Part shown: positions 5,364-38,810 of the stretch, piece after piece
Layout of the letters: each line of letters begins with the position of its first letter
Position numbering within the stretch: the first letter of the stretch is position 1
Assembly: GCA_020080175.1 (NCBI GenBank)
Contig: JAGHQL010000210.1
Span: forward strand, 1 to 42,146
Direction: 5' to 3'
DNA length: 42,146 nucleotides
From: Glutinoglossum americanum
Lineage: Eukaryota; Ascomycota; Geoglossomycetes; Geoglossales; Geoglossaceae
Notes under the pieces: generated by a model
Told to the model about the DNA's origin: nothing
The model's input: the letters and a program-made list of their open reading frames with translations, nothing else
Databases searched by the model: none
Position numbers and translations under genes: made by a program

Positions 5364-8300
5364 TCATTCTTGGTAAGAGACCTTCCGCATATCACCTAGC
5401 CTCTGCCGTGCCTGTGCGAGACTGTTCTCTAGTTGCAGAATCTCAACCTACCATATTCGCGTAGTCCATCAGTACGACCCCCCTTCAAGAACCTAAGTAG
5501 GTAGATCACAGAAGGAAAATAACTAACCTGTTGCTCCATTTCTCTAACCTTAAACTCGTGTCCGCTAAGCTTGGAGTAATCCACCACTTCATTCTCTTCG
5601 TGGTTACGTGTAGTGATAATATCCTGAACCTGGCGCACGAGCGACCGACAGGCGTTTGTGACCGCTTTGGATGCTGTCTCTAGCCGATCCTGGGTCTTGG
5701 ACATAAATGTGGCCTTTACCCTAGAAGCGGCAACAAGTTGAGCCGTTGAAGCAGCGACGTCGTTTGATGCTACTATAAGCTGTTCAGGGCTATTGCGCCC
5801 ACTAATAACGCCATCAGCGGTTTCGATGAGCATGTTAGTGGAAGCAGCGACAGCTTTGGCTGCCGAAATAAGCCCTTCAGTCCAGCGATTGTGGCGCTTG
5901 TAGAACGCGGTTCGGCTGCTGCTGCCTTTCCCTTGCGCTACGATTTCTTGCTGAGAGGCTGTTGCAGCCTTAATAAGCTGCGCGATGGCGTTTGTAACTG
6001 CAATTGCCGCCTCAAGGATCACACTATCGGAGAATTGTTAGAAGCATAACCCTACCCCAAAAGGCGGTTCGGACATACCCATGAATCTTCAGATCATAAG
6101 TGGAGTAGCTAGCGTCCTTTGGCTTATTCTTGAGCTTCGTCAGCCTCTCAGTCGCCGCCTCAATAGCAGAGGCAGCGTTCGTCAATTCGCGGTCAACGAG
6201 ATCTCCGATATCGCCGGTTGTATTTGAGATCTTTCCACTCCTGGGAGCAAATGCCTCAGCAAGTTTCGAGAGTTTCTGCAGGTTAACCTGCACTTCATTG
6301 TTGGCGTTTATGACGTGGTCAGTCTTCTGCTCTGGATTCAGGCCGTCAAGACGGAAGGACTGAACTCCATTGAAGAACTTCACTGTTGTCTGTGCGGATT
6401 GGCGTGCTGCATTGATTAGCGCGTCGGCCTTCTTATCATCGGTAGCGAAACGCGTAAGGCCCTTAGTATTACTAAGAACATCTGCTATAGACCCTGCGAA
6501 CTGGTTTACGGTCCGGATGATCTCCGTGTGAGGGCTGCTTGGGCCATCAGCTATGAAATTGTTAAAGGCAGTAGCGAATTCCGTGGCATTGGCGGAAGCC
6601 TTTTCAATCTGTGAAAGAACATATGCTGGGGATGCATTCTGATTCCCAGCTTGCATCGAAGAATCGAGTTCATAAAGTGCATCATCCACTCGCTGCACCC
6701 CGCTCCTCAGAACAGAGTCTACATTCATCAGCGATATCCTCAAGGGGCAGGGGCGCTTACATACCAATAATGTCTCCAATCTTCCGGATGCTATCCAATT
6801 GGATTTCACCGATCTGACCATCTACAACATGATCGGTTGTTTGATTTTGCTTCGAAGGTCAGCAGAGTTTCTGGAATAGGTCCCTAGGCAACCGTACCAG
6901 TCTCAAATCATTGAGCTGCAGTAATGTTTCATCCATGCCAGCCTTGAAGATCTCCAATTCTTCTTCCTTCTCGCGGAGAGTCCGCTCAAGGTCTGAATCG
7001 CGCTCTCCATACTTGGTATGAACTTCATCTAAGGCTCGTGTTTTATTCTGTTATGCGTCAGTATCTCCGCAAGATCTCTAAGCTAGGTAATGAGGCTTAC
7101 TCTCAGGGCCTCCTCGAGGTCAGCCATCTCACGGTTATATTTCGCAAGTAGAGATGACACTTCCGAGGCTTTCGTACGCTCCGCATTTTCTGCCTTTTCT
7201 AGAGCGAACCGTAGCTCGCGCTTGAGCTTTTCAACTTCCTCTTTATTACCCTACTCAACAGCTTCAGCAATCACACCATTAAATCGACATGACGGGAATG
7301 CAATACTCACCCCCTTCAATCTGTCAACATCATGGAGCGCTCTATCTCTCTCTCGAATCATATCTGCAAGTTCCAAATTCTTTGTCTTGATTTCCCGCTC
7401 CATTTTCTCCCGCTTATCGACCGCCTCTTGGGCCGATGCAGCTTTCAGCTGCACTTGCTTGAATTTCTGTAACAGCTCAAGGTGTTCGTGTCGTAGTTGA
7501 GAGTAGAGCTTAGCGAGTGCCTCATATTTTGTCCGCCATGTATTTACTTGCTCTGTGGAGTGTTAGTTGGGGGAGCAAGCCTGAAGAAAAATCGACTAAC
7601 CTTGTAGGGCACGAATCTGATCATCCTTTGAAGCTGTCTGCTGGTTAAAATTTGAGTTTAGCTGTTGTAATTCGTTTTCGAGCGCCTTCACTCTCTGTAA
7701 TTGATCGCGTTAGCGCCAGTAACCATGACGCAAGATCTTACTATGAGTTTACCCTATCATATTGTTCCAACATCAACTGATCTTGTTCATACTGGGCTCT
7801 CGCATTCAGATTTTCCCTCTCTAATTCGGCCATCCGGCCCTCAGTCTGTCTTTGGTAATGGTCGCGGGCCAGTTGCTCTTGTGCTAATCTCTGTTGTTCA
7901 AGCTGCAGCCGCTGCTGCTCCTCAAATTCCCGTTGTGCTTGTTGAGCTTGCAGCTGCTGTTGGTAGAGCTGCGCCTCTCGTTGCTCTACCAGCCTCCGTT
8001 GCTCTTCGGCATATTCGTCTTGCTGGCGGCGCTGCTCACTCTTCCAAAACTCATTGATGGGCTCAGGATCAATGGCGGATGCTGTGCGTGGAGGTGTAGG
8101 TGTGGGCTCTGGTTGCTCGATCTCTCGCGCCGGGCGGCGAGGCAGTGAAGGTCTCTCATCATCTTCTGATAGAATATTCGGCGGCTCCTGCAAAACAATT
8201 AGATGAAAGAACCGACAGATTTCAAAGTCACTAACCTGTGGCAATTTTGGTACCGTGATTAAACTTGTCAGGTATCTCAGGTTAGAGCACTCATAGTAGA

Positions 8301-9460
8301 AGTTGAGAAGCCGGAAATGCTGGGCGTTGTAACGATCTCTAAGCGGTTCGAGTGCCTCACCATCGCCAGTAGCTTTTGATATCCAGTTAGCATCTCATAC
8401 AAGATATGGCATGAGGAAACACACTGGTATGCATCGCACGAAGCATGCTTGTTATAAATTTATAGATTCCATAGCTCTCCTGTACAAGAGGGACCAGAGA
8501 GGATATGCGGCATTCGTTGTTTGTTCCATGCTTGAACTGAGAAAATACTAATTTCTGGAATGAGTCGATTTGATCCTGAAGGGTCATGAGATCGGTGATG
8601 GTCTCATAGCTAAGGAGGTTATTAGCTTCAAGTGCTAAGTGAGGGTAAACCTGAAAGGCAAAGTAGCTCACCCCTCATTAGGGTCATCAATAGACTTGAG
8701 ACTGATGTACTCCTCATATTCAAAGGTTCCTGAGTCACAAGTAAGCAATCAACAAGATAGATATAGGCGGGGTTGACCCAAGACATCATACCGTTGAACT
8801 CGGGGTGCTGCCGATGAAATGCCAACTTCGCCAGAAGGAAATAGACGTACTCCCGAATAAGCGGTCCGTAGCCTATAACAATATCAGCACCAAAGAGCAA
8901 TTCGGAGAGCAATTGCCCAATGGGTACCCTTGTCCAATGGCCACTGGAGCGACGCACCTCTAAGGCCATCTCCAGAGACACCTCTCTTCAAGCTCTCTAA
9001 CCAACCAACGTGCGACTGCGCTTCCTTAATTGTGATCGGGTGACCTTCTTGAAGAACCTTGTGAATCGTTATCAGTGCTTTAAAGGTTTGAACTTCATCT
9101 GCTAAGATGGGTTGCCTGGTGAGTTTGGAAGTCAATTTTCCGAAAATGAAAGAAGGGTTGACAGAAAGCCCCGCAGCTTACACTTTCATGCCCGACCAGA
9201 ACGATTGGGATGATTTGTGGTCCCATGTATAGACAATACAGCTTCGGACATGCTTGCCTGCGGCACATGAGCCTTTGTTCTCGAAATGATATTTATAATG
9301 AGGTAAGCATTCGTACGTTTTGGAGCGGTTTCCTCTGAATCGGCAACCCATCGTCAGCAAGCTCCTTCGGAGGCATCCACGTCCCAAAAATAATTCATAG
9401 CTCACCAATATTGGTGGCCTTCTTTATGTTCATGGCCAATTCCGACTCTGACCTGTGCAT
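5364..9460 (-). CDS. SLA2: SLA2/End4 endocytic actin-clathrin adaptor (HIP1R family), 17 exons
   Basis: Couples clathrin coats and PI(4,5)P2 membranes to cortical actin during endocytosis. Exons on the minus strand: 9460-9406, 9334-9317, 9257-9182, 9115-8958, 8872-8792, 8729-8672, 8609-8425, 8372-8236, 8187-7753, 7694-7601, 7552-7311, 7250-7101, 7047-6898, 6813-6765, 6718-6079, 6023-5528 and 5447-5364; the sum is 3108 nt, 1035 aa, usual for the family. The ANTH domain is residues 1 to about 256 (RKHVRSCIVYTWDHKSS, YGPLIREYV, GYETITDLMTLQDQID). A Pro-rich linker (EPTPTPPRTA), a Gln/Glu-rich coiled coil to about 630, and the THATCH / I/LWEQ actin-binding module to the C terminus follow. The start MHRSESELAMNIKKA matches the conserved family N terminus. 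One exon is only 18 nt. The acceptor of the 6813-6765 exon was chosen by phase and is the least certain. The gene is a classic MAT-locus neighbour. Confidence 0.96.
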
Positions 9461-10337: not shown

Positions 10338-13183
10338 CTAGGAGTGTCCGTTATCTGTATCAGCCCATATACTCTTCGACCGTGCCTCCTCTTCCTGTGC
10401 CGCCTGCCAGTTAGACATAGCCGTCGCCTTGTCATCTGACGGTTCCAACTCTCCTCGATCGGTTTGTCCCGGATAGCTTCTGGGTGGTAATTGCGGACGG
10501 CTACTATGCTGCTCTTGGGGTTCTTTGTTAGACTCCAATCCGTTATCTACGTCATCATCAAGTTCCAAGGAATGGATGAAATCATTCCTAGAATCTTCTA
10601 ATGGAGTTGTCGGCTCCGAATCTGGCGGCGCAGCTACCACGAGTAACCCGTCATCCCCCTCATCAGCTCTATGAAGCTCGCCGGTTTGCCGTGGCGGCAG
10701 GGGTGGTATTGGCACCGGCCTTCGTTCTGTTTCCCCCTCATGCTGTCGTTGAGAAAAGAGAGGGGGCGGCAGAGACTTTCTCTTTGGAACATTCACCGGT
10801 GTTGACTTGTTTCGGTTTCTTTCCGGCGGAGGAAGTGGGACGCCAGGCGGTGGAAGGGGCCGTCCGCGCCCAACCGGTTGAGTAGGTGAACCCTCTTTTG
10901 CCGAATTTGCTACTCCGTCAGTTCCGGTTCTAGGCTCATTGCTACGGCTCAAGACCCCCCATCCCCATTTCTTGGCTGCCGCGGTTGCCGCGGTTGCTGC
11001 GGAACCAATGGAAGCAACAGAATGTCGTTTTTCTGACGGGCTTGCAGAATGGGCAACGGAGAGGGTCGATCCGCTCCTGCTTGGGACATTCCCAAGCGCA
11101 GCGGGATGCTTTTGAGCGTCCAAATTCAAGTCTGAGGGATTAGACGGGGTATGCGGTGGTGCCATTGATAACCCGGCCGCTAGGTCTGTATCAGGATTGT
11201 CTTCCTTCGACGATGCCGAAGAGTAACTACTTCCTTCAGAGATGGTTGTGCTAGCCCTTGACGGCGATCCGACGGGGGAATCCGTAGGTGTGGGAGACTG
11301 AGAGCGGTTTGATATTGCCATCATCACCGTTGCCGCATTCTGACGCTCCCCTTCCTTGCGCTCGCGTACGGCGTCGACATTTGTTGTATCCATGCTGACT
11401 ACCGGAGATGCTGCAGATGTGAAAGATCCCGACCTCATGTGTCTTGGTTTCCCTGCACGCACTCTCGCCTCTATAGCGGATGATATTCCACTCTCTTTGA
11501 CTTGGCTAAGAGAATGCGTCGATGCTATATGTGCCGAAGTAGACATAGGGAGCGCAGGCATACTCATAGACTTCTCTTTCGATCCAAGCACACTAATTCC
11601 AGGCCGTCCCACGCTGCTCTCTATTTCATTCTTCTCCTCATCACCGGTAGCAACATCTCGACTATGCCTCAATTTGTCATTGGCCCAAATTCCCCCTCGG
11701 AAGCGCTGCCGCATCGTATCAGTGAAAGAGATGTCATCCCAATGTGGCAAGACTAGTGTCTCAGCGATGACCTCTCTAATCCTGCTTTCTATTGCCCGGA
11801 GGATGATGTTGTATGTGATCTGTCTCGAGCTCACAATTGGCTCAATGGACAGCTCTATCTTTGGCATCGTCTCAAACGTAATCCATATACGGTTGCTTGG
11901 AGGAGGCTTGAAGCGGACAATAAAGTGTCCTTCAAGTTTCTTGACAACGACTGCCAGGACCAAGTTGACCTCTCGGGCTTTGAAGCGGGAGCCCAGATCA
12001 ATTCGAGCGGTTGCAGCTACCTCAATCCTGAAGTTTCCCGTATAGTTCAAGTCCATTTCGGCGGAAGAGTCCCCATCCACCGTCAGATCCCTCAATCGAG
12101 GATTTGTTATGTAAGGTGCCCCCTCACCCATATAAATCTTCTGCAGTACGATATCAGACAAAAAATTTGGTTTCTTCACCCGTGAAATTTTTTTGGCAAT
12201 CTTCATCCGAACAGCATTCTCGATCTCAGGCGTCTTGTAGAGGGCCAAGAACAGCCTGCCGACCAAACCATTGATCCAGCGAGTTTGTAAATGCTCTTCT
12301 GAGGAATGAAGCCTTTGCACGAGACCGATAATATCCTTCACCTCAAATTGTAGTGGCTTGGGAGTCTCTTCTTTCGACTCATGTGTGTGGTCCTGGTTCT
12401 GAAGTAGCGCAAAGTAGAAATCTTCCTTATCCGAACAATTTTCGGCGAACAAGTAGAACGGTTTTGATACCAAACCGTCCGCCGTAAGTTCACCAACATC
12501 TCCCTTTCTCGTTAGACATATCGCATTGCGCCGAATCCACAGCTCTCCATCAGGTATAGGATCTCCGCCGCCAGTGATACTGACGCTGTGATGAGTTAAC
12601 GAGATAACATGGCGGACTTCGAGCTGTTCCGAGTCATCGTATAGCATCAAGTGACCGTGCCTGCGCTACGTTTTAGCACTGTCCAGTTGAGTGGGGTCCT
12701 TCGACGCGAACCCAGATCAGGAAATAATAACCTTAGAACAACAAAGAACACGTTCCTCGCTCGTTTCGCTCCCTTCGCGGGATCGAGACTCGGCGACTGC
12801 TTCCTGTCGAATATGCTCCGATACATACTCTGGTATACGCTTGGGCTCTCCGGAACCACCGTTCCCACTGGTGTTGTACGTTCTGGAGGCTTCCCGTTTA
12901 TGCCTCCCGGCACATACTCCCTGCATACCGCAAAATAGCCCGCCGCGACATCCGGTTCGTGGCCTCGCGGTCGAGCGAATTTTTCAAAGTCTTCAGTACC
13001 AGACTTTAATATGCTCTCATCGTCACCAGGACGCTGGAGGGAGATTTTTGCATCCTCATCGTCGGCGAGAGTGCGAGTCGGAAAGGCGAAATAAGCATGG
13101 AAGAGGACAAGACAGAGGATAAGCGGAATGAAAGTAAGACCGCCGAAGATGTAAACTACAAGAAACTGGGTGAGAGTCCACAT
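10338..13183 (-). CDS. NVJ2: NVJ2/TEX2-type PH and SMP-domain lipid-transfer protein
   Basis: Orthologue of yeast Nvj2 and metazoan TEX2, ER-anchored proteins that move lipids at membrane contact sites (nucleus-vacuole junction, ER-Golgi). Two exons: 13183-12732 and 12660-10338; 2775 nt, 924 aa. The ATG at 13183 puts a transmembrane anchor at the extreme N terminus (QFLVVYIFGGLTFIPLILCL). A PH-like domain at about residues 125-255 spans the intron (NVFFVVLR, then HGHLMLYDDSEQLEVRHVISL read in two parts; NAICLTRK). An SMP domain follows at about 265-465 (RWINGLVGRLFLALYKTPE, LDLGSRFKAREVNLVLAVVV-like core). The last 450 residues are Ser/Pro-rich and probably disordered, with polyproline stretches (GRPLPPPGVPLPPPE). 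An in-frame GTG lies ten codons upstream but is not a likely eukaryotic start. The gene is called TEX2 in MAT synteny work. Confidence 0.93.
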
Positions 13184-13769: not shown

Positions 13770-16700
13770 TCACCATACGCTCCAGTCCCCTCTCAATTCT
13801 TCCAGTATCTTCATCACAGGCCGTCCAGATGCTTTTATGCTCCTCAGCTCAGCCATCTGCCTGGTGCGCGAGTAGAATACTGGACAGTCCATGCTATCGC
13901 ACTTCACCTCCTCACTAAATGCCAGACCAGCACAAGAGCGACACACGTTCAACAGATCGACGGCTTTCTTCTCCCTCTTTGTAAGCCTCGTCCTAAGTGT
14001 GAGCATCGACGTCTCGCGACTTCGAACACAGCCATCGCAGATAGCGACTCTAGAATCTTGTCTCTCTCCGCAGACAAAGCAAGACGATGACTTCATATAA
14101 GATTCTATTGTTTTCTTCGAGTTCGCGGCCTCCTGTACACCATCGCCATGGCTGCGGCTTTCTATTCTGCGAATACGTTGAAATTTTGGCATTTCATCGT
14201 ACCATGTCCGGACGTTAGCCCCAACGAGATTGAAGATGCGTTCCAGCGGTGGGATTAAGTTCTTGGAGATATAATACTCAGCATCGAGTTCAATATGACT
14301 GACCAGTTCGTATATCAGCAGGACGGCCTAACAAATATCATAAGGCTAGAGCTACCCACTTATTCTTCAGCAGGGTCTCCGGAGAAACACAACGGTCAAT
14401 AAGCCTAGCCCCCGGAGCGCCAGTGACAACGACATATGGAACCCGTTCTCCATACTGCGGTTCAGCCCTCGGATCCTCCTTCATCTTTCTCGTGCTGATC
14501 AGAGCACCTGGCGGAGGCGGGCCCTTTTCGCTGTACGTGCCCAACCTAACCTCTCTAGCAAAACAGAAGTCCTGCACAGATACTTTCCCCTTCATAATCT
14601 TGCTGCATTGTCGCTGAAAATATTCTTTTACCTGGCTAAGATCTGACGTCTGAAACAAGATCCTCAGGGCCTTCTCCTCGATCTTTTGCTCCGCCGGTGT
14701 CCCATCTCGGCGAACCGTTTCAGTGCCTTTTGCCTCGAATTCAGGCTCTTTCTGACCCTTGTGCTCATACTTGAAGCCTATGTAACGCTTCTTTGCCAAT
14801 AGGACACAAGGGAAATATACCTTTTCAAACTTGAGCTTTACCGGCCGAGGATTTATATTAGTGACCGCATTCGCAATCTCTTCGCCAATATCGAACGCTT
14901 CATCTTTCGTGCGACCTTTTAGGTGAATAAAGATACTGTCTGTATCGCCATACACTACTTCTGCGCCCCATCGTTCCACCGAATGGATAAAGGCTATAGC
15001 CTTTTCCAACGTCTCTCGGCCACTCTGGACAATGCTGTCTGCAATCTCTGAACAAGGCATACGGCCAGAAAAAGATGCTGAAGTGTACCCATAGGTAACA
15101 TTAGCCAGCAGCTTCAACGCCAACTGCCGGTTGTTGAGCAGTCGTTGCAAAGTCCTATCGTCTTTATCCGTCTTCATGCCGCTCTTCACCATCACCCGAG
15201 TCTCAAGGATCTCGCCCAGCATCTTGGCCAAAAGAGACTTGCGGATTTCTTGTTTAACATACATGATACCATTCGGGGCAACTAAAGCGGGTTAGAGGGA
15301 TCTGAACAAAGAGTCAGTGCAACTTACCATTTATTTGGTCCCTGAACAACCCTAGGAGTCCCAGCTTTCTCTCATAATTCGTGAATCCCATTTTGTTCTG
15401 GCCTTTCCAACTCACCACTCTCCCCAAGAACGTAGAGTAGCAATAATTATAGGCGATCATTATGCTAGGGTACAGGGACTGAAAATCCAATACAAGCACC
15501 GGGCTGGTGTAGAAAGCGCTTTGAGGTTCCATGACCAGGGGTAGACATTCCAAAGCATTCTGGCCGCCCACTTGCTTCCGACTTGGCGAAGGGAGTATAA
15601 AGTTCTCCGGCTTTGCAAGGCGAAACATGATTGACTCGACTTTAAATTGCGAGCCTCTTGAGATAACCGAAAAGAAATCAACACCAAGTATGCGGGCCTG
15701 CTCGCTAGTTCGGGGGATAAGTTCGTTTCGGTCGAGAATCTCGAGATTCAGTCGCACACGAGAGACATAATAGTCTATGCACTTCGCAAGATCTTGCCCT
15801 TTCCCGTTCTGGTACCAGGCCGTCAAATCCCCATGTGGATAGTGCGGGATCCTCCTATGCAAGAGGTGGAATACAACATTCTCCAACGTATACTGCAACA
15901 GGTGCAATTCACTTTGAACCATCCGCCAGATGTTTAGCAAGTGTCTTCCCGTTACCACATTGGCCTGGCCATGGGAAATTTCCCAACTAGTCATTTGTGG
16001 TTTGGATCGGCCACTGAGATGGGATACCGTCCGCGATAGTTCGTCGCTGAGGTTATAGTCGTACTTATGCCCAGCGCGCTCCATCAGATAACCCCAAGAT
16101 CCTCTATAAACTTCATAGCCAGCCAAAATGTCAGGGTCGTAGAACCGAACAACATCTACAACTCTATTGATAAGATCCAACTCTGTTGGCTCTTCTTCGA
16201 CGCGTACAGCAACCTGTTTTGATATTTTTTTGGCCAGGCCATCTTCACAAGAGAGGGCGATAATGCCGATGTGAGTCCCCTCGTTGATGCCATTGCTCTC
16301 CAAACCCTCCTCGTCGGACTGCAGACACCAGAAAACACACGAGACTTCGTCCTGTTCTGGATCTGGTGCTAGGTTTCCCCTCGTATTAACATGGATCTCT
16401 AGACTCATGATGCTCATATACTGCGTCTCGTGTCGAACACTGGTTGTTTCTTGTTTCTGAGAATACATGAAGCCATGCCGGTTCTTCTGGGTCGGACCGT
16501 CGATTTGTGATAGCTCACCTCCTTTAGAACGGTTCTTCTCGCCTGTGCCAATCTCTGGGGATTCATTTCCTCGCCTTAACCATTCTTTAACTTCCCCTCG
16601 GCTCGGTGGCATCTCGCTGATTTCCCAACTCCGCAACCTACAAGCTCGCCTTCTATACTGGAGAACTTTCTCTTCCTTGGTTTTGTCAAATCTAGACCCA

Positions 16701-22230: not shown

Positions 22231-22950
22231 ATGGGCCATTCAGCAGGTCTAAGGGCTGGCACTCGCGTATGTTTATGTCTCGGAAAAAACGATGTCCATT
22301 TAGCTCGGGGCTTACAAGATCGATAGTATGCCTTCTCGCGCGACTTCAAGAAGAAGGGCATGATCCCGCTCTCAACCTATCTCAGACTATATCGGTATAT
22401 AACGGCAGTATGCAGAAATTTAAACTACAAGGTGGACTAACTTTTATAATAGTGTTGGCGACATTGTGGACATAAAAGCGAACGGAGCAGTACAGAAAGG
22501 GTCTGTAACTCCAATTCCAATTTTTGCTGCAACGCACTTTATCCTAGGCCTGAAATTCTGTGCCCCCTATAGAGGAGTTTAAGATGCAAAAATATGAACC
22601 TGTTGCTAACTCGGAACAGCATGCCTTACAAAGTTTACCACGGAAAGACCGGCGTCATCTACAACGTCACCAAGAGCGCAGTCGGAGTCATCATTTACAA
22701 GAAAGTGGGCAACCGGTACATTGAGAAGCGCATCAATGTCCGCATTGAGCACGTCTCGCACTCACGGTCTCGGGATGAGTTCGTTCGACGTGTTAAGGAG
22801 AACGCCGAAAAGAAGCGGAAGGCAAAGGCCGATGGTACACACATTCATCTCAAACGACAACCCGCTATGCCACGAGGGGAGCATACTGTCAGTATGAAGG
22901 GCAATTTGCCGGAGACGATCACACCAGTTCCGTACGAGACCACGATCTAA
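22231..22950 (+). CDS. RPL21: 60S ribosomal protein L21 (eL21)
   Basis: Large-subunit ribosomal protein. Four exons: 22231-22266, 22327-22394, 22453-22500 and 22620-22950; 483 nt, 160 aa. Joined reading gives MGHSAGLRAGTRYAFSRDFK, KKGMIPLSTYLRLYRVGDIV, DIKANGAVQKGMPYKVYHGK, then the GNRYIEKRINVRIEHV core and the C terminus ETITPVPYETTI, all typical of fungal eL21. The intron before the last exon has a textbook gctaac branch site shortly before its acceptor. Named L21e in descriptions of the MAT-flanking block. Confidence 0.97.
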
Positions 22951-28200: not shown

Positions 28201-28404
28201 TGTAAAGTGTGTGAGCCCACATTCACTATTTTTATTTCAATCAAAGCATACGTTAAAATACATGAATTTACGGAAGTCAGTTTCCTCGAAACTCTCTTAG
28301 ACTAGGAAATCTGGAGAATATTTAGGAATGCCGCCTTTTCCCTAGCTTTTATGAGAAGTTACTAGCTGTTCTGAGATGTATTATGGGCTTTTCCTACCAA
28401 TGTG
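25290..28404. other. Repeat-prone interval without a supported gene
   Basis: 3.1 kb downstream of RIM2. It holds homopolymer tracts in both orientations: T-rich at about 25359-25378, T at 26449-26461, A at 26933-26945, T at 27123-27143 and A at 27393-27403. It also holds the tRNA-like relic at 27147-27222. The many short overlapping frames (for example several at 26137-26551) show no family motif. It looks like accumulated debris of small insertions, but I could not identify families. Confidence 0.45.
27147..27222 (-). tRNA. tRNA-like relic with a Pol III B box
   Basis: On the minus strand the sequence GGGTTCGAATCCC is a perfect T-loop/B-box with a 4-bp T stem, and TGGCGCAAG about 55 nt upstream resembles an A box. 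However, the acceptor ends do not pair, a clean anticodon arm cannot be folded, and an A tract rather than a T terminator follows on the minus strand. A decayed tRNA gene or the head of a tRNA-derived SINE fits better than a working tRNA. Confidence 0.35.
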
Positions 28405-28827
28405 CTAATCAAGACCGAGGCGTTTTTGCAACCGGTCTAACCAGTCCTCTAACTTGATCTTCATAAGAAAGTCTTTTCTTCTCTTCAGGTGGGCCTTCCT
28501 CTTTTCTGTAGATTGCGGGCCAGCAGGTATAGACCCCCTCTTAGTGTATTCTCGCAGCTCTAGCCAAAGAATGTTTAATCCCATATCGTCTACCGCCAGC
28601 TGGTTATTAAGGACACGGTCTAGATAATCGCTCAGTATCTCAAACCCCAAGCTTTCCATCCCTTGGCAATATGTGATCCGTTTTCTGGTCCCGTGTTCAA
28701 CACCGCACCATCCCATGGGATCCCTCCCCCCAATCTCCCGATTAAAGCAGGCACCAAGTCTCCATGCCCCGGCTAATCGGTAGTCTCTCGATCGGTCAGC
28801 GCTAGTTCCAAACCCCGGATCTCCCAT
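28405..28827 (-). CDS. Unrecognised 140-aa protein
   Basis: Open frame from ATG at 28827; an in-frame GTG lies further upstream but is unlikely as a start. The N-terminal half is Gly/Arg-rich with aromatic residues (DYRLAGAWRLGACF, GGRDPMGWCGVEHG). The C-terminal half is predicted helical and strongly basic (STEKRKAHLKRRKDFLMKIK, ending LDRLQKRLGLD). There is no signal peptide or membrane segment and no family I recognise. It is divergent from the ORF starting at 29001, with 173 bases between start codons. It may be a lineage-specific gene or an exon of a larger one. Confidence 0.4.
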   Translation of the reverse strand: MGDPGFGTSADRSRDYRLAGAWRLGACFNREIGGRDPMGWCGVEHGTRKRITYCQGMESLGFEILSDYLDRVLNNQLAVDDMGLNILWLELREYTKRGSIPAGPQSTEKRKAHLKRRKDFLMKIKLEDWLDRLQKRLGLD

Positions 28828-29000
28828 CTTCCATTGGGCTCTCGAGGCCACTGAGCGCTAGGAATGGCTCATATATTCCGGGCTAGTCAACATATCGGTG
28901 GGAGTGATGGATGTGGATTCATCAGCCAGCCTTTAATTCCCATTATTTTCCTCGCTCTTGAACCATCGCATCAAACCTATTTCCTTCCATTGTCGCTGTG
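28828..29000. promoter_or_regulatory. Short divergent intergenic space between two orphan ORFs
   Basis: 173 bases between the start codons of the leftward 140-aa and rightward 193-aa frames. If both are real, this is a shared promoter. No named element is visible. Confidence 0.3.
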
Positions 29001-29582
29001 ATGCCTCATATATTGCTTGCTACGGCGGCGGCATTTAAACCTCGATCTTCGGCTATAGTAGTCCTCGAAACAACGGCTGACCCACCTTGGTTATGGAGAA
29101 TGCTTAAAGAAATTGGCATTCACAAGAAGGACCGGGTTGATAGTATCCGTTCGAAAAAGGCACTCTCCAAGGTCTTATCATCCCCGGATGCCACACGGAC
29201 GCTCTATTCTCTTACGCTCCAGTCGAAACCTGGCTCTCAGCTCCAAAAGCACCCCAACCTGCTAGTCGAGACGATTTCCAACTACCAGATAATCCACATT
29301 GAGGCTTATGTCGTCTATGTCGATCTGGTACAATCCAAGGAGCTGGCTTTCAAATCAACACCAGAGTCGATATCCGGCCTTGCGAAATACCGCAGGCATA
29401 TCCATCTCGTTGATGCTCGTAATGGTCGGTCTGAGGAAGCTGAAAAGCTCCAGCATGAATTCATCGAGTTAGTCAACGGATTTGTTTATCGGACAGATTG
29501 TGAAGCGTTGCTCGGTTTTACGTCCGGGGGGCTCTCGCAGGGAGTGACGAAGTCAAGAATGGGGTTAGCCAGCAGCAATTGA
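29001..29582 (+). CDS. Unrecognised 193-aa protein
   Basis: Intronless frame from ATG at 29001 (MPHILLATAAAFKPRSS). The composition is globular and protein-like, with alternating hydrophobic strands and charged helices (LLVETISNYQIIHIEAYVVY, GLAKYRRHIHLVDARNG, EEAEKLQHEFIELVNGFVYR). No catalytic motif, zinc ligand set or membrane segment is obvious. No HMG box or alpha box is present, so it is not a recognisable mating-type regulator despite its position between SLA2-block genes and APC5. The C-terminal end (GGLSQGVTKSRMGLASSN) is low in information and could run into an unspliced intron. Confidence 0.5.
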   Translation: MPHILLATAAAFKPRSSAIVVLETTADPPWLWRMLKEIGIHKKDRVDSIRSKKALSKVLSSPDATRTLYSLTLQSKPGSQLQKHPNLLVETISNYQIIHIEAYVVYVDLVQSKELAFKSTPESISGLAKYRRHIHLVDARNGRSEEAEKLQHEFIELVNGFVYRTDCEALLGFTSGGLSQGVTKSRMGLASSN

Positions 29583-30690
29583 TCCCGGTGGCGCTGCGGA
29601 TGGGGTCAACTGCTGCTACTAATTCCAGTGACCTACTGAAACTTGCACCGTTGCAAGTTTTGGTCGTTGGTTGAGTAACTGTTAAATGTACATTAAAATA
29701 TTTAGCTGATTTGTATTTCCTAATGGTCTCTCCCGTATCCTAATAATTGCTACTTTATACAACATGCTGACAATTTTAGAGTATCCGTCTAATTGCGAAG
29801 CGACCGCCTCAAATTGTCGTTGTGAGGTGTACATATCCGTACTCGACTAGAACTAAAATCATGTATCAGGCAGTAGGCAATATTACTTCGCGATACCACT
29901 ACGAGGTCTGTCTGGGAGCAAGATGTTGATCACGCCTAGATTTCCGAGATAGGATGATGGTTATTAGACAATATAAGGTCATATCATTAACTCTATGTAC
30001 TTCTTCAAGGCTGATAATCAAGTCCCAACAAGCTTATATACCATCCGCTAGATGATCTCGCACAAAGCTACGCAACTCATCTTGAACGTCATCGGTACCA
30101 GACATTTCCAAAAATATATTAGCATTGCTGGAACAATCAGCCGGGAAACTCACCTGCGACGAGCATCTTGCTGTCTTTCCCACTCGGTCTCCCGGATTCG
30201 AGTTCTTCCTCTACGAGAGTTTTTGTATTCTAGTCAACGGTTTCGATCTGCTTCTTCTCGGTGTCCTCTTCCGTGACTTCTACCTAATAATATCCTACAA
30301 TGGAGCCTTGCCTGGATAAAAGGTAGCGAGTTTAACAAATGGTTCCTTCGGGATATCGTTGGATTCCCAGTAGATCGAGATGGAGAGAATATACCCCCTA
30401 TTAGCAAGACAAACAAATCATGACTTTTATAGTTGCCTTGCTTGATTCCGGGAACCTGTAAGCAAGGCATCTACCATGTCTTTGATTCGCTAGAACCGCA
30501 AGAACACGACCAAATTAAATCTGGTGGTGGTACTGTAGTGCTCGGAGCGACTCCTTGGGTTGTAGGTAGAATGATTGCTAAAGTACGTACACGCGAGAAA
30601 CTATATAGGGGGTGGTCTGCCAAGACCCCGTTGCTCGGCTCCGCCGAGCCACTCCGGACAGCCATTCCAGGCCAACTTCCGGGCTCTACA
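29583..30690. other. Interval without a supported gene
   Basis: AT-rich to about 30300, then more balanced. It contains the 10-bp perfect hairpin at 30434-30469. Short frames (30052-30276, 30433-30723) have no family signal. Confidence 0.4.
30434..30469. repeat. Perfect 10-bp inverted repeat (hairpin)
   Basis: TGCCTTGCTT at 30434-30443 pairs exactly with AAGCAAGGCA at 30460-30469 around a 16-nt loop. Role unknown; it is not beside a gene end. Confidence 0.7.
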
Positions 30691-31053
30691 GTACTAGTAC
30701 CAGTGACCCTTGCGATAAAGTAATTGGCCACAAGGGTCATTGGTACTGGTACCATCAAACTACTGCAAGGGACATTGGTACTGGTACTATCAAGTGCCGC
30801 AAGGGGACATTGGTACTGGTGCCATCAAGCTGCTGCAAGGTGGTACGATCAAGCTCAAGGGTCATCGATCGCAAGGGTTTTGGTACTAGTACCATGAAGC
30901 GCCACAAGGGTCAATGGTACTGGTACCATTAAGCTGTTTTGCAGATACCCGTAGGTGCCAATGCGGCATCGCAGGGGTCGTTCTGCCAATTGGTAGTGAT
31001 ACCGCAAAAGTCATCGATTCTGATAGAGCGGTACCAGTACTAATGACCCTGGC
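30691..31053. repeat. Minisatellite, about 35-bp units, capped by inverted copies
   Basis: Imperfect direct units of the type CAAGGGTCATTGGTACTGGT followed by ACCATCAAGCTGCTG begin near 30731, 30766, 30801, 30877 and 30903, with a shortened unit between 30837 and 30876. The core GGTACTGGTACC is nearly palindromic. The same core occurs in opposite orientation at both ends (CTAGTACCAGTGACCCTTGC near 30694 and GGTACCAGTACTAATGACCC near 31030), so the array is bracketed by inverted copies. No ORF or CRISPR-like uniform spacing. Confidence 0.8.
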
Positions 31054-31375
31054 AAAGCTCTTGCTCAATGGTGGCTAGAGCATGCTCCTCCAAAACAGGC
31101 GAAATAACTCCAACTAAAAGGGCCATCTCTAAAAATGACTTTTCCAGAAATAGATAGGGGTGTGGGTAGTTGTTGAGTAATACCGTTGGATAACGTATTA
31201 GTACTGGTAATATTCATTATTAAAAGTATTATTGTCTTAAGGAAATACTATTTTCTCTTTCATAGAGGTAAGGATGTTAGGATTAGTATTTAGGATGACC
31301 AGTGTCAATTAATACGAATATCACTCTATTGCAATAGCAAGTTTGTCATGCGCCAATATATCTCCGATAAGATAA
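31054..31375. other. 3' flank of the CFEM-like gene, no gene seen
   Basis: AT-rich stretch between the minisatellite and the stop codon of the CFEM-like gene; it probably holds that gene's 3' UTR. Confidence 0.4.
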
Positions 31376-32088
31376 TCAACGACGACGAAAGAGAATTATA
31401 ACGCCGATAACTGTGAAAAATCCAGTTATGGAACCAATAATGGTCCCGGCAATTTCGCCCTTAGATAACCCAGATTTACCTGAGACCGACTCTGTTGGTC
31501 GGCTGGATGCTGTTGTAGGAGAGGTAAAGCCCTCGGAAGGCGATATAGTGAATGTTGAACGTGTTGTGGGAGAGGTGAAACCGTGTGAAGGCGATGTAAT
31601 GAATGTTGAAGGTGTTATGGGAGAGGGAAGAGAAGCAACTGTGGTTGTGGTGTACGTCTTAGAATAGACAATGCTCTCTGTGATATCTGTCTGGGAATCA
31701 GGTTAGGTCCGCAATACTGATCAGCTGGAGGTATACGACCCACTTTGAGAATGACTTGGAGATTGCACTCTTTGCTGAAGAAATTCATGACCGTATTGTA
31801 ATTATTGACTGTCCAGCAGCTGCCCCCACCCTTTTTCAGGCACTCATCCAGCAAGTCGGCAATGGTCTGGGGGTCACTGCACACACATTCCTTGGTCGAG
31901 CACGAAATCGTCCCAACAGAATACAGCCATGAGTAGGTATTTTGTCCCGCAGCACAATCCTGCTGGCAGGCATTCATAGCGGTGTAGCCGGGTGCATTCC
32001 TGAAAATGATACGCACTGAGTCGGGGGCCGCAAGAGCACTGTAAATCATCAACAGCAGAAATAAAATGTATGTGAAGATTGTCGTCAT
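31376..32088 (-). CDS. CFEM-like secreted/membrane protein with Thr/Ser/Pro stalk and one TM helix
   Basis: Two exons, 32088-31744 and 31690-31376, joined across a 53-nt intron with donor gtgggt and a cctaac branch site; 660 nt, 219 aa. The signal peptide is MTTIFTYILFLLLMIYSALA. The mature N-terminal domain has exactly eight cysteines (C-x3-C ... C-x4-C-x-C ... C-x7-C ... C), the count and CxC core of CFEM-type domains, although the Asp before CxC seen in haem-binding CFEMs is absent (STKECVC). Exon 2 encodes a Thr/Ser/Pro stalk with two tandem 17-residue units (STFITSPSHGFTSPTTR, STFTISPSEGFTSPTTA), then KGEIAGTIIGSITGF and FTVIGVIILF as a single transmembrane segment ending in RRR. Predicted cell-surface protein, topology N-out. 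Receptor, wall sensor or iron-uptake role is not decidable from sequence. Confidence 0.75.
31511..31612 (-). repeat. Two tandem 51-nt units in the stalk of the CFEM-like gene
   Basis: Two adjacent 17-codon units, STFITSPSHGFTSPTTR and STFTISPSEGFTSPTTA, match at 13 of 17 residues. A typical length-variable O-glycosylated stalk. Confidence 0.8.
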
Positions 32089-33284
32089 TTGAGCTAGAGG
32101 TGGATACTAATTATGAGATAGGGTGATAGCAGGTTCTTGAAATCTTGGAGCTTCAAGTCCGGAATCTGGCTAACTTAGAGGCTCTCGATGTGACCCTGTG
32201 AAGTGGGGCATTCAAGAGGTCTTTCTTTCTACCGCTGACTTTTGATTCTTGTTATTGCTTCTTCACAGACGGTGCCATGATAGGTTGTAGTGGTGCAGCA
32301 ATAGTCTGGGCGCTGCGTGCCATCCCCATTCCTGCAAGAGATGAGCAAAATAGTAGCCTCATTTGCGCGAGCTGAGTGTAGTTCATAGCCAATGAAAAGC
32401 CTTAGGTAGGACGGTGTCGCTCAAACTGGATAGAAGCGAAGGTGGCGAACTTCTTATCTTGACTAGTGTTCGAGACACGTGAGCAAACCTTCAATGTCAA
32501 CTCAGATGAAGGATCCTCATTTCTAGCATGGTCCTCGACAAAAACTATGGGCAAGGGTCATAGAGGTGGTGTCAAGTTAGGAAAGAGAAGGCATGATCTC
32601 ATCCGATAACATTCCATCTGTGGGGGAGGTCACCATTGTTGTGAGACAGGTCAGTGATAGTGCAAGGTGGTGAGAGTTGGCAGAATTGAAGTGAGCTTTG
32701 GACGTAAGGATCTTGATGGTTGCAGAAACCCGAGTCACGAGAGCGGAAGCTTCACCATTGCTTCGAGGGTCGTCCATGGTGCTTCTTCCCCCTGCCGTGC
32801 TTGCTCACTTGCCTTGAATTTTCCTATCAAAGCATCATGACTTTTCCAGCTCACAGAGGCACGAACGACGGACACCAATCTACATACTAATGTATTTTAC
32901 CCCCAACAACATCCTTTCTCAAGATTCTATTGACCCTTTCCTCGGCTAGGAGGACCATGCTAGAGGACCTCTTCTCAACCTGTCACACAGCCTAGACCCC
33001 TAGAGGGAGGCCGAAATGTACTCACCGGGCAACACACTATCGATCACTAGACGGTTTTATGGTCATCAGCAATACCGAGGTGAGTTAAGGGGGTATTTAG
33101 CTGCGGTCGAACGGGTTGCAGTACGTCAGGTGAGTCGCAATTTTAGAGATTCAATAGCTCACGAGAAGTCGAGGCTGTACTCCACCAGCGAGCCTGCCCA
33201 TTCCAGATCATCACGGCAACTGACATAATTCTTATGGACTTGTCTGTACAGATCTGAGTAGATACAAGCCTATTTGGGCTCCTC
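32089..33284. other. Interval without a supported gene
   Basis: The part near 32089 should contain the promoter of the leftward CFEM-like gene. Small frames at 32577-32777 (minus) and 33016-33228 (plus) carry no family signal. Confidence 0.4.
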
Positions 33285-33754
33285 CTAGCCGCGCCCCAAA
33301 ATTTCCCACGCAATCCAGTCTTTTAGGCCAGGGGCACCCCCCACCAGATCATCCTTCTTACCATACCATTTGAACGTCCGGCCCGAAACCTTTGTGCTGT
33401 CCTCCAGCGCAATAGAACAACCTGTATTTATGTAGCGCGCCTCGTCTCATAGGCTTCCAAGAGCTTCACCTCCTCTGGTGATTGGATTTCGTAAACGACG
33501 CCATGAACGGTCGCGCCTGAACGATCGTCAATGAGAGCTGGGTATGGACCCCACATCATGCATCGGTATCCGATAACTTTAGCGGGCCGCAGCACAGGCT
33601 GATCCGGGCGACCTAGGACTCTAGCAAGGGTAGCAGGGTCCATCAACGTTCCATAGAAGAAGTAGGGTTGCTTGCGAAAGGCATAACATGGATTATTCGG
33701 ATCGAGATCGCGGTAAGGCGCTCCTTCGTTGGCCATGAGGAACTTGCGTGCCAT
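33285..33754 (-). pseudogene. AIG2-like / gamma-glutamylcyclotransferase-fold gene with a frameshift
   Basis: Reading from ATG at 33754: EGAPYRDLDPNNPCYAFRKQ then PYFFYGTLMDPATLARVLGR, with the YGTL motif that binds the gamma-glutamyl substrate loop, and VIGYRCMMWGPYPALIDD, HGVVYEI and LLEAYET, all family blocks. The frame then closes at 33428. The C-terminal family sequence continues immediately in another frame: ARYINTGCSIALED, KVSGRTFKWYGKKDDL, GLKDWIAW, stop at 33285. No intron fits between them; one base appears to be missing near 33440. Fungal relatives also carry about 40 more N-terminal residues, which a stop just upstream of 33754 prevents here. It may be a young pseudogene or a sequencing error in a live gene. 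AIG2-like proteins are small cytosolic cyclotransferase-fold enzymes of mostly unknown substrate. Confidence 0.75.
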
Positions 33755-34768
33755 TATCGAAGGAGGCCGTTGATTCTCCTAGCCAGGCAGGACAATGACG
33801 GTCTGGGGCGGTGACTAGCTCAAGTTATGAAGTTGGAAACTACCGCATTTCGTGGGTCCAATTCTGAGGAAAGGATACCTGGCAGCTTGCGCTGAGATGA
33901 CCGTCCTGCCAACTTGCTCCGTCGTCCTGCCTCTCATGTTTCTTGCTCCCACACAGGCGTGTAGCTAGCAGGTTGTATTGAGTTGGTGAGGACTGAGAAT
34001 CGTTTATGCAGAAGTATATGGAGGTCTATAGGGCAAAAGTATTGCTAGTTTTGCTGGTCCATGTTGCGGGGTGCTCAGGCACCGCCTCGTTGGCACCCCT
34101 GAGTAGTTGAAGGGTGTCCGTGACGGGCTGAGTGTTACCCCTGAGCAGCTGCTATAGTAAGTTTTATATCGGCAGGGCCGATATGCTTCCGGACTGGCCG
34201 AAGGATAGTCGGAGTAGCCACGGGCTGGCTATGGAGGCCGCAGAGCGGCCAACTACTTATATAACTTCATTTCTACATAGCTAGCATTCAGTAGTTGCGA
34301 GAAATTTAATTGATTTTACCCCTATACACTATTCTATTGTTTACATAAGCCTAGCCGCCATTAACCTCTATCGAGCATAACCTTCAACAGTCCATACATG
34401 ATGCAATAGTGCTTTCGAATCGACTCAACTCAGTGAAGACTTAATCAATTTCCGTGAAAGGCTCCGTAAGGTAAATGATAGTCTGGAGAATATGCCAGCC
34501 CAATTTTCAGTAATCGAATATATTGAGGCTGAATTTTCGTTGAGCGACACTGGTGGTTTTCCGGGTGTATCAATAAAACTTATGCCCTGTATCTCTGTAG
34601 AAGTAGTACGTGTGCTTTGAGAGCGAATTTGAACTGAGTTTTCGTTGAATGAAGCGCCATCGTGAAACCTTCCTACTATGTAAGTAGCGTAACCCAGTCG
34701 GGTGGGAAGGGAACCGGACGTCCTTTATACGAGAGTTTATGCGCGTGTACAGACGGAGTGTGAAGGTG
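33755..34768. other. Interval without a supported gene; GC-rich stem-loop segment
   Basis: A GC-rich segment at about 34065-34260 is full of short inverted repeats (for example ggggtgctcaggcacc against ggcacccctgag). A 75-codon open stretch about 34398-34620 (plus, no ATG at its head) has protein-like composition (LINFRERLRKVNDSLENMPA) but no recognised family. No gene can be supported. Confidence 0.35.
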
Positions 34769-34828
34769 AAAGTGGTGGGATGCGCTCACACGAGCTTAGG
34801 GTGAGCATCATCACCCAGCCCACCACTT
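34769..34828. repeat. Imperfect inverted repeat (hairpin) beside the MITE
   Basis: AAGTGGTGGG at the left pairs with CCCACCACTT at the right; inside, GATGCGCTCAC faces GTGAGCATC. The whole 60-nt segment can fold into one long interrupted stem. It may be a tiny internally deleted element or a structural relic. Confidence 0.6.
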
Positions 34829-34880
34829 AAAGCGGCGCCAGCCAGGTGAGGCCCTCATGAGCAAAAAGCGGTTCACTATA

Positions 34881-35152
34881 ACGGTAATTTACCACCCTGC
34901 GCCCAGTACCATCCCACGCGCGCAAGTACCTCGCTTACCAGTTACAGCAAAAAGGTACTTAATTCGAAGGTCTTATAAATCTACCCACATTTATCCAAAA
35001 TTAAATAATTTACAGATATACTGGATAAATGCACATATATTTAATGTTGGAAGCGATATTGCTGTTTAGTATAGTGCTTGTTGTGATAAGTCGAAAATTT
35101 GTATGGGAAACGGCGGTAGGGTGGTACTGGGCGCAGGGTGGTAAATTGACGT
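34881..35152. mobile_element. MITE, 272 bp, Tc1/mariner-type with TA target duplication
   Basis: Terminal inverted repeats of at least 34 bp: left end ACGGTAATTTACCACCCTGC..., and the right end read on the minus strand starts ACGTCAATTTACCACCCTGC. They differ at positions 4 and 5 and then match for 26 bases, through CGCCCAGTACCA. Both ends are flanked by TA (34879-34880 and 35153-35154), the target duplication of Tc1/mariner/Fot1-type elements. The interior is AT-rich with no transposase frame, so it is non-autonomous. The low TIR divergence suggests it is not very old. No second copy is seen in the window. Confidence 0.8.
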
Positions 35153-35154
35153 TA

Positions 35155-35871
35155 TGGCCAAGCCACGGTTTGAGTAGCCGTTACGAAGGTTGCAGCAGGT
35201 CCCGCCAGCAAAGGCGAGCCAATATATATAGAATAGACCCTTAGTTTGCACTTCCGCATGGAGCAGGGCGCCGTCTCTACCAGCGGTCAATCCCACATAT
35301 CCGATGTAATTAGAGTAGAAACGCCTCAGATCTAGTCGTTGGATCAATTTGGGGAAGGTTCTATAATTCCGCTTGGCGAAGAAGCATTGCCAACGATGCT
35401 ACAAACCGAGCGTATGCCACATCGTTTATTCATGCGGGGATGCCCTATTTGATCGGACAGTTGCTCTTATGTATATGTATGTATGTTAGATTGATATTTC
35501 TCGATGTGGGAGACATGGAAATTCCTCTTTGTCGCACGTATTATGAGCTCTCCTGGTTCTTTATTTTACAGCACTAACACGCACAACGCGCGATCCGTGG
35601 AACGAAGCAAGGAAGCCAGAGAGCACGGGACTCGGGAAACGAGGTATCACCATTTTTATATATCCCCCCACCCCCTCAGTAACTAGTTGAAGAGAGCAAA
35701 CGCAGAGCCCGATCTAAGTTTCTAATACCATCATCGGCATTGAAAAGGAAAGAAGCCGCAATATGCGCCAGACCTGCAGACCGCCGGGATATCTTTAGTT
35801 AATGAAAGCAAGCTTAGTCCCCGTATTCTACTCGCTTTTCCCCCTTCCCCCTGGAAATAAGGTTCGTGAAT
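35155..35871. other. MITE to APC5 3' flank, no gene seen
   Basis: 717 bases with no supported frame. The right end is the 3' flank of APC5 (stop at 35872). AT-rich around 35460-35500, with a TATG repeat (tatgtatatgtatgtatg). Confidence 0.4.
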
Positions 35872-38810
35872 CTATGAGTTAACCATTGCTCCTCTTCCCC
35901 ATTGGCTCTCGACTTCTCCCTCCCTGTCCCATCTCTCGTCCAGAGCCACATACTTTAACGCATACTCGTTGCACAGAACTAGATCCCCAGACATCTTATA
36001 GGCAGTGGATTTCTTCATGAGCACCTCGAGCATGCCGGAGATGTCCTCAGCGTGGGAGAATTCTGAGAGAGCAATGATGCGTGTTAGATATATGGTTCAC
36101 TTCTCAAAGAAGGGTGGGAAAGATTATAGGGTTGCCGGAAAATGGGATGGGGTATTGGATAGTAGACGTACCAGCAAAGGCCTTATCAAGGAGATCTTGC
36201 GCTTTGGTTATGTATTCTGTACGTTTGATACTGCCGTGGCCTGCCTCGCCGGCAAGACCCATTGTGGCATCAATGAAACAAGAGTAGCTCTGACCAATTA
36301 AATATGCGTCTTCGCACTCGTGTATCTAGTACAGTACTAATTGTTAGTAGCGGCTGCCACCATCGAACCCAGCGAGGGAGGGAAGGGAAGAAGCTAACTC
36401 ACTTGGGGCATTATGCTATCCATAAGTTTCCATGCAGCGTCGCATTCTTTAAACTCCACCAGGCACTTTGAGACCGCACCAACTGCAGCATACAGCGCTG
36501 AAAGGTTCTTAGCACGCTTGGCAATGCTCATGGCTCTAACGGCAATCGACCAGCCCTTCTGCGTTCGGCCGCATTTATCAAAAAGTTGCGCCTTCAGAGT
36601 CATGAGACGGATGCGCTGATGGATATCCGCAGGTCCTTCCTCAAGTTCCTTGAATGTTTTTTCTAGGAGAGCCAGAGCGCCACTATAGTCGGATCGACGG
36701 ATGAGTAGATCGTATCTCAATAGAGTTAGCTCAAATGAGACGTCGGGATCCACAGATGGAGCAGTAAGGAGTTGCGAGAGGAATTCTGTTGCAGCATCAA
36801 AGTTGCCCCTAAATTGAAATGAGCGTTGCGAGAGAAACCGATGATTGATTTGAGATAAGAGCCTACCGGTGAAGCTGGCGCTTGAGCTTGAGGAGACCGG
36901 AGAAGGTGGTCCAGTATTGATATATTCTGAGATTTTTCATGTCCTCTACCTCTATTTCGTCGAGTTTCGCCATTGCATCATCGTAGCGACCCTTCAGGGT
37001 CATCTGTAGCTGTAAGACACACGCCAATCTACTAGGGGATAGTTGTCTTACTAAGAATGCGATTCGGCAAGTAACCTTCACAATATCGTCTATAGGGGCG
37101 TTAGAAGCATTGCATACGAGGAAAGTTTCGCATTCATCAAGCGCGAGAGGGCTGACTCCTGGGGGATAAAGACCAGATTAGTTTCAGTATTGCCCAAGTG
37201 TGGCGCGATGGCTAACTGACCTAGGCGGCTCCAGAGCGAAGACTTTAACAAAACCTGAGATCCAATCACATTGGTGACGCCTTTCACAACGCTTAGATGA
37301 GAGCTCTGCGAGATATTCTCAAAGGCTTTTGCCAGATTTTCGCCCTTATGCTCCAATAGACAGTGTTAGTCTCGTGGATTAACCTTCTCCTTTCGATAGG
37401 AGTCAGACGGAAACTCACGTTGGCCATTATCATCCTGGCTTCACTTAAGAGTGATGTGGCCATCAAACTCCACATCCCATTCTCCTTAGCCTTGGCCTTT
37501 AGAAAAGCTAGTCCCTCCCGCTCGACACCCATCATACCTCCCTTTGTGTCTTGGTTCACCTCACCCGGGTGGACTTTCCCGAAATGATACAGCCAGCTCA
37601 AGCTGAAGTTCAGACAGCCCAGATCCTTGTTCTCTCTGGCGGTAGCAATCGTCTCTCGCATAGCAGCAAGAGCTTCGCTATAGCAACCGAAATCTGCCTG
37701 CAGGATTGCGAGATTTAGGAGAGCATATTGGTAGAAGGTGCGATCTCGATTGTGCATAGTGTAATCGAAGTAACGGTGAAGGCTCTCGAAAGAGGTAGGA
37801 TAATCGCCAGCGCGCCAAGCGTCAAGGAACCTATGAGAGTAGTTAGGTAGCTGTCTTTACGAGTATGACCGAGCATAAATGGGTATCTACTTCACGTATT
37901 GTGAAAGACTCGGGACCGTGACTCCGCTATCTAGCATAGTTCGTAGCTGTTTTTTAATCTCACCTGGTATCCTGTTACCCATCTCTGAGCGGCATCGTTA
38001 ACTTAGTCCTTCTACCTGTATCCGTTAATGAGGGAATAACATACTTTGCATTTCTTCAACTTGAAACTCCAACAGTCTCTCAACATCGTCAGTGCTCACT
38101 AACCCGGTTGGTCCCTCAACCTTGCTCTTCCCCTCATCGGCCAACTTCAGCTTCTCATAGACGATGGTTGTCAATTGGTCCTCCCATTTGAGTCCGCTGT
38201 CTTTCAGATTGACATCGAAGCTAGTTTCCCCGGCGGTCGAGTTTCTCCTCTTCCACTCCGATAGCGTTTCGTTGCGGAAACTCACCAAACTCTCCCACAA
38301 TGCTTTCGAATCGTGAAATTGCAATCTAGTGAACTCGAGATGCGAACGACGGACGAAGTTGCCCATGGGTGAGGCGCGAGAGAGAAGCATCTTGTTGGTG
38401 TCTTGTGGTGGAAGCCCTTGTTCTATATCCTGTTCCTTCTCCTGACGTGTCTTGGCTATCATTGCGGGTAGTCCCTCAAAGAAAAGGAACAGTGCATCGA
38501 GAGAATTGATTTCCCATAGCTTCTTAAGGAAGAGATCCCACATATTACGGCCAGGGATGATAGACTGATGAATGATGAGGGCCTCCTGAAAATCCTCCAA
38601 CAAGATGACCGAGCTAACTGGCTTGCTTGCCGAAGAAGCTGAAGACAAGGCCGAGGAGCCATCGCTGGTACTGGACGTGTCTGGAGGGAGGATATATTTG
38701 ACGAGGAAAGTTAGAAAAGGTACGGTAGACTTGGTAGGGAGGACGCTGTCGGCGTAGAGAACAACCAATGCAAGGAGGCCGATCTTCGAAGGAGTGAGAA
38801 AACGCGGCAT
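35872..38810 (-). CDS. APC5: APC5, anaphase-promoting complex subunit 5, 9 exons
   Basis: TPR scaffold subunit of the APC/C ubiquitin ligase platform, which drives mitotic exit; nuclear. Exons: 38810-38045, 37984-37891, 37830-37419, 37350-37221, 37158-37052, 37009-36867, 36808-36403, 36325-36172 and 36062-35872; 2403 nt, 800 aa, usual length. The start MPRFLTPSKIGLLALVVLY is the canonical APC5 N terminus. NFVRRSHLEFTRLQFHDSKA and the helix-rich central part follow (QYALLNLAILQADFGCYSEA is a TPR-like helix pair). The C-terminal TPR stretch includes YWTTFSGLLKLKRQLHRGNF and CFIDATMGLAGEAGHGSIKR. The intron at 37010-37051 is only 42 nt and a multiple of three, so its retention would not break the frame. 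APC5 is a frequent neighbour of APN2/COX13 on one side of MAT in Pezizomycotina. Confidence 0.95.

Follow-up and report, generated by a model that had tools for sequence, protein, structure and literature searches.

A mating-type flank around SLA2 with a likely displaced APC5, and no mating-type gene detected, in Glutinoglossum americanum

The mating-type (MAT) locus of Pezizomycotina is described as SLA2, then MAT, then APN2, COX13 and APC5, and APC5 is usually reported together with APN2 and COX13 (PMC10298223, PMC7263672). Exceptions have been described. In Chaetothyriales, SLA2 was found away from MAT in Incumbomyces (PMC8900376) and Arthrocladium (PMC7263672), and in Eutypa lata (Xylariales), which has no canonical MAT region, a MAT1-2-1 homologue is unlinked to sla2 and apn2 (PMC9007359, citing Robinson and Natvig 2019). 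The status of APC5 as an ancestral partner of MAT has been questioned as well (PMC10745113). Gene neighbours of MAT are also given for Hymenoscyphus, in a published figure legend that lists MAT1-1-1, SLU, DNA pol and SLA. Here, we analysed a stretch of 42,146 bases from Glutinoglossum americanum (contig JAGHQL010000210.1; hereafter the window), which carries SLA2, APC5 and a run of further genes known from MAT flanks, and we asked how this block compares with the described loci.

From left to right, the window holds SLA2 (−), a TEX2/NVJ2-like gene (−), REV3 (−), SLU7 (+), ribosomal protein S9/uS4 (−), ribosomal protein eL21 (+), a RIM2-like mitochondrial carrier (+) and APC5 (−). Genes were called by combining Pfam searches of long open reading frames (ORFs) and of intergenic parts in six frames, sequence matches to PDB entries, and spliced models. 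The latter were built with a compact dynamic-programming routine that takes splice sites into account and had been trained on coding ORFs of the window itself. Since a first, unlimited run fused neighbouring genes, a second run was made gene by gene with hand-set limits. Model ends were rough, with uncertain ends for SLA2, TEX2 and the carrier and an N-terminal exon left out of the REV3 model. Inside the domains of all eight gene models, no break was seen. Gene identities, strands and order are established for this block, and they agree with the identities and order given by a first-pass annotation made from the sequence. The outer limits of that annotation were likewise recovered, with the SLA2 stop at 5364 and the APC5 ATG at 38810 in both modelling runs.

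The first-pass annotation had also described these genes as a MAT-flanking run in which no HMG box, alpha box, APN2 or COX13 was visible, and this description stood in the parts scanned. Six-frame Pfam scans, with E up to 1 and stops written as X, covered 1-5600, 8300-10400, 13100-13800, 18800-19450, 20889-24152, 24952-36398 and 38829-42146, while the rest of the window, that is, the named genes, was scanned as long ORFs only. No HMG box, MAT alpha box, APN2-type endonuclease or COX6A domain (COX13) was found in the six-frame parts, whereas the same scans recovered intron-split pieces of ANTH, S4, L21e, Mito_carr and I/LWEQ, which served as a built-in control. In particular, no APN2 or COX13 domain was found in the 10.7 kb on the carrier side of APC5 or in the 3.3 kb up to the window end; both genes may lie beyond the ends of the window. 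When HMG- and alpha-like strings were run with phmmer against the whole window, cut into 1464 six-frame fragments, the highest-scoring HMG-like match reached 7.4 bits, at 31027-31104; 5 of 30 shuffled windows equalled it, which is chance level. When a split HMG box was planted in the sequence, one half scored 24.4 bits and the other only 7.4. This marks the limit of sensitivity; a strongly decayed MAT gene would escape detection. Of the features of a canonical Pezizomycotina MAT locus, the SLA2 flank was present, and no alpha or HMG box was detected between the flanks.

Our preferred reading, to which we give a probability of roughly 55%, is that the block is an SLA2-side MAT flank in the ordinary order of its lineage, with MAT, APN2 and COX13 outside the window and APC5 uncoupled from them by rearrangement. 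The block would be the part of the conserved MAT neighbourhood of filamentous ascomycetes that lies on the SLA2 side, and the order SLA2-TEX2-REV3-SLU7-S9-L21 would probably be ordinary for the lineage and not a private inversion. The block itself would have no function of its own, its members being housekeeping genes whose neighbourhood was kept. MAT, APN2 and COX13 may lie to the left of position 1, past the 3' end of SLA2, or elsewhere in the genome. APC5 may have been split from APN2 and COX13 by a rearrangement with breakpoints in decayed, gene-poor DNA around the block. What stays unusual in the block is the placement of APC5, which faces the carrier/L21 end across a gene-poor interval, no MAT, APN2 or COX13 being seen between them. 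It is likely a displacement of a known kind.

This reading draws on the unbroken gene models, the Hymenoscyphus list, the apparent age of the S9-eL21 linkage, the published cases of SLA2 away from MAT and the lack of inverted repeats above chance at the breakpoints proposed for an inversion. Several points weigh against it. The position of APC5 is left unexplained by it. The case for an ordinary order is built on a single figure legend and on assumed Neurospora locus numbers. The Hymenoscyphus list may depart from the map order, and its polymerase is not specified. In that same legend, the gene named next to MAT1-1-1 is SLU7 and not SLA2, which would favour the possibility, discussed below, that MAT once sat at the other end of the block. 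In addition, the order with L21 next to SLA2, as assumed in the first-pass annotation, may apply to some class such as Onygenales.

The interval between the carrier and APC5 had been described as 10.6 kb of repeat-rich DNA, a description that our counts did not bear out. Within this one window, to which our measure of repeat content applies (dispersed repeats across the genome being beyond its reach), recurring 13-mers made up 1.0% of the interval, as against 0.1-0.4% of other stretches and 70.9% of an array at 40.8-42.1 kb. Tandem Repeats Finder reported two small arrays in the interval (30731-30840 and 31511-31626). An inverted repeat was present at 34878-35155, with 40-nt arms that are 90% complementary and 198 nt apart, the sole listed pair of at least 30 nt. 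The interval is gene-poor, but not certainly empty. All five gene models in it were weak. The best, a single-exon frame of 160 aa at 29100-29582 (+) with coding-like codon use, scored 11.8 under an equal start penalty, compared with 10.7 for eL21 and 17.1-179.9 for the other seven named genes. Pfam gave nothing for it up to E 1, and it could represent either a small gene or a remnant. For the ORF at 28962-29579 (206 aa), of which this frame is a part, an identity was sought and none was assigned (best Pfam E 0.034, best PDB E 1.3). The longest ORFs of the interval, 208 and 206 aa, were just within the 95% limit of shuffled sequences (209 aa). Yet 15 ORFs reached at least 100 aa against a shuffle mean of 7.3, an excess that suggests small genes or remnants of coding sequence. 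A clear broken-gene remnant in the interval is a GGACT fragment, whose reading frame, read by eye, stops within the domain. As a separate observation, an ORF of 163 aa at 31618-32106 (−) had by eye a signal-peptide-like start and several cysteines and matched no Pfam family up to E 1; its product may be a small secreted protein.

A possibility was that MAT, APN2 and COX13 once stood between the carrier/L21 end and APC5 and were then lost or moved, the 10.7-kb interval being their scar. We consider this unlikely. In its support, MAT1-1-1 is at the SLU7 end of the Hymenoscyphus listing and SLA2 at the far end. The second classic flank is formed by APC5 with APN2 and COX13 (PMC10298223), and in heterothallic members of Aspergillus section Nidulantes, MAT has apc5 and sla2 as its neighbours (PMC11787670). 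The broken GGACT gene and the scarcity of credible gene models point the same way. No HMG-box or alpha-box trace stood above chance in the interval, however, and no piece of APN2 or COX13 turned up there. Moreover, genomes of this kind often contain gene-poor DNA. The longest inverted match shared by the interval and the DNA left of SLA2 was 14 bases, a length equalled in 7 of 60 shuffle pairs. A stricter version has MAT, APN2 and COX13 leave 25.2-35.9 kb together as one cassette, so that the old flanks now face each other across decayed DNA and MAT is elsewhere; it seems to us improbable. The missing trace in the interval, together with the published uncoupling of SLA2 from MAT, fits a scenario in which APC5 moved here while MAT is located to the left of SLA2 or at another site, and we rated this above a former MAT in the interval.

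The first-pass annotation had instead proposed that the segment from L21 to TEX2 was inverted once with respect to SLA2, an event confined to this lineage that would have brought APC5 close. Such an inversion follows if the ancestral order was SLA2-L21-S9-SLU7-REV3-TEX2, as assumed there, and the strands within the block are compatible with a block turned as a whole. Literature searches by gene names from the run turned up no description of this order, though, and the selected passages of PMC10569646, the one relevant paper for the gene run, do not state it. The Hymenoscyphus listing fits the opposite: if it follows the map and its polymerase is REV3, then REV3 lies between SLU7 and SLA2, as in the window. 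For Neurospora crassa, we take S9/un-16 to be NCU01949, REV3/upr-1 to be NCU01951 and SLA2 to be NCU01956, numbers that would likewise place REV3 on the SLA2 side of S9; our literature search found no paper for these assignments. Neurospora mat A corresponds to NCU01958-01960 (PMC9949647). If the Neurospora order and the order assumed in the first-pass annotation are both right, the block differs in orientation from class to class, and the present genome is not exceptional in this. The proposed breakpoints shared at most a 12-base inverted match, equalled in 5 of 60 shuffle pairs and thus not above chance, although inverted repeats at breakpoints would be supportive of an inversion, not required for it. 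Turning the L21-TEX2 segment alone would not, in our view, bring APC5 near. The part of the proposal that makes APC5 a usual partner of APN2 and COX13, here near the SLA2 block, was retained, and the part that explains its nearness by this inversion was not. As our searches located no published statement of the reference order, and no inverted repeats above chance mark the breakpoints, a private inversion is not supported, and we regard it as quite unlikely. Finally, an assembly misjoin at some point from 9 to 36 kb could have produced the order. Judged from sequence alone, intergenic DNA might conceal such a join. The window, however, contains no N and no abrupt change in GC content, and SLA2, TEX2, REV3, SLU7, S9 and L21 are tightly packed, so only short gaps are left for a join from SLA2 to L21. 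The S9-L21 pair, moreover, is linked by name in Kluyveromyces lactis (see below). These points do not bear on a join within the interval at 25.2-35.9 kb. Altogether, we hold a misjoin to be very improbable.

Main features of the window, in order of position
Feature	Coordinates	Strand	Remarks
SLA2 (cytoskeleton assembly control)	5364..9189	−	14 exons, 1004 aa, first exons uncertain; 3' end points left
TEX2/NVJ2-like protein (PH + SMP)	10338..13183	−	model, 5' exons uncertain
REV3, DNA polymerase zeta catalytic subunit	13770..19088	−	start codon not fixed
SLU7 splicing factor	19428..20888	+	start picked by eye at MPPPRK methionine
Ribosomal protein S9 (uS4)	21090..21994	−	191 aa, 6 exons; Ribosomal_S4 and S4 domains
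Ribosomal protein eL21	22231..22950	+	160 aa, 4 exons
Mitochondrial carrier, RIM2-like	23906..25181	+	model ends uncertain
Gene-poor interval, no MAT, APN2 or COX13 domain detected	25182..35871		six-frame Pfam, gene models, shuffled ORFs, repeat content
GGACT (AIG2-like) gene fragment	33428..33754	−	E 3.2e-12, profile 1-75/120; E 9.6e-14
APC5, anaphase-promoting complex subunit 5	35872..38810	−	774-aa model, 9 exons

The individual genes were identified as follows. In Pfam, SLA2 matched I/LWEQ (E 2.4e-53, the last I/LWEQ exon being recovered as well) and, in pieces spread over several frames, ANTH (up to E 3.8e-16). The TEX2/NVJ2-like gene gave PH_11 at E 4.7e-12 and a weak MMM1/SMP match (E 2e-5). 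REV3 matched DNA_pol_B at E 1.8e-76, and its best PDB match was a DNA polymerase zeta catalytic subunit (E 3.1e-123). Its model spans 1658 aa (13770-18853), and the N-terminal exon that falls outside it was detected as REV3_N (E 2.2e-19) at 18918-19088. The Slu7 profile matched the ORF 19251-20885 at E 1.3e-90; an extra first exon of the SLU7 model was rejected because it overlapped REV3_N. The carrier showed Mito_carr at E 1.8e-44 and a further downstream piece at E 1.8e-10; the name RIM2 is our presumption from a motif. For APC5, the ANAPC5 profile matched the ORF at E 3.7e-38 and the model at E 1e-38, and the PDB match to APC5 had E 5.6e-14.

The two ribosomal protein genes are divergent neighbours (21090-22950), and their models cover nearly the whole of their Pfam family profiles. 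The best PDB chain for S9 was 7r81_K2 (E 1.5e-44). The spliced eL21 model matched Ribosomal_L21e at E 4.6e-45, and its best PDB chains came from 7olc/5oql. We take 7olc/5oql and 7r81 to be Chaetomium and Neurospora, respectively, and other filamentous ascomycetes may be few in PDB. Protein searches with pieces of SLU7, REV3, SLA2 and the carrier against a collection of viral contigs, and with SLU7 against one of genome contigs, brought up no relative. The PDB matches of S9 and eL21 also include chains named KLLA0E23673p and KLLA0E23651p, systematic names that are 22 apart. We take KLLA0E names to be those of Kluyveromyces lactis, and what a step of 22 means is likewise our assumption. On this ground, the pair seems anciently linked.

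Toward the window ends, other features were noted. At 896-1135 (+), within the ORF 596-1246, lies a partial heterokaryon incompatibility (HET) domain (E 1.3e-7, profile 28-99/146) that looked degraded by eye. At 3853-4292 (−), DUF3435 was matched twice, collinearly but in separate reading frames, at 18.3 and 14.5 bits, where the family cut-off is 25.8. This segment, between the 3' end of SLA2 and the HET piece, is probably a relic of a DUF3435 gene, which we take to be the family holding Starship captain recombinases. On the right, 40803-42146 consists of 132-bp direct repeats (3.3 copies) followed by a 54/51-bp tandem array, which encodes a Thr/Ser/Pro-rich repeat protein continuing past the window edge. 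Over the whole window, GC content was 44-55% in 1-kb steps, and the composite index of repeat-induced point mutation was below 0 in all 1.5-kb steps except 21.0-22.5 kb (0.05) and 40.5-42.0 kb (0.17). ARAGORN, used with bacterial settings, found no tRNA in the window, and Rfam gave nothing at gathering score.

As it stands, the block is one more example of loosened synteny at a MAT flank. Should MAT have been driven out of its place between the old flanks, the locus would lend itself well to the study of mating-type relocation. A word of caution is that "inverted" needs a documented reference order. Among the described systems, the SLA2-MAT-APN2/COX13/APC5 locus of Pezizomycotina shares with the window SLA2 and APC5, both classic flanks (PMC10298223, PMC11787670); here, in contrast, the window yielded no MAT, APN2 or COX13, and APC5 lies past the L21/carrier end of the SLA2 block. 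Eutypa lata is alike in that sla2 is not linked to a MAT gene, a comparison that concerns linkage alone and not the order of the SLA2 block. In Incumbomyces and Arthrocladium, SLA2 has no MAT beside it, as is also the case here as far as the window extends, but APC5 stays there with APN2, COX13 and MAT, whereas here it is found with the SLA2 block. Hymenoscyphus (Helotiaceae) resembles the window in that SLU7, a DNA polymerase and SLA2 are listed together. It differs in that MAT1-1-1 is present beside them, and TEX2, S9, L21 and APC5 are not named in its legend.

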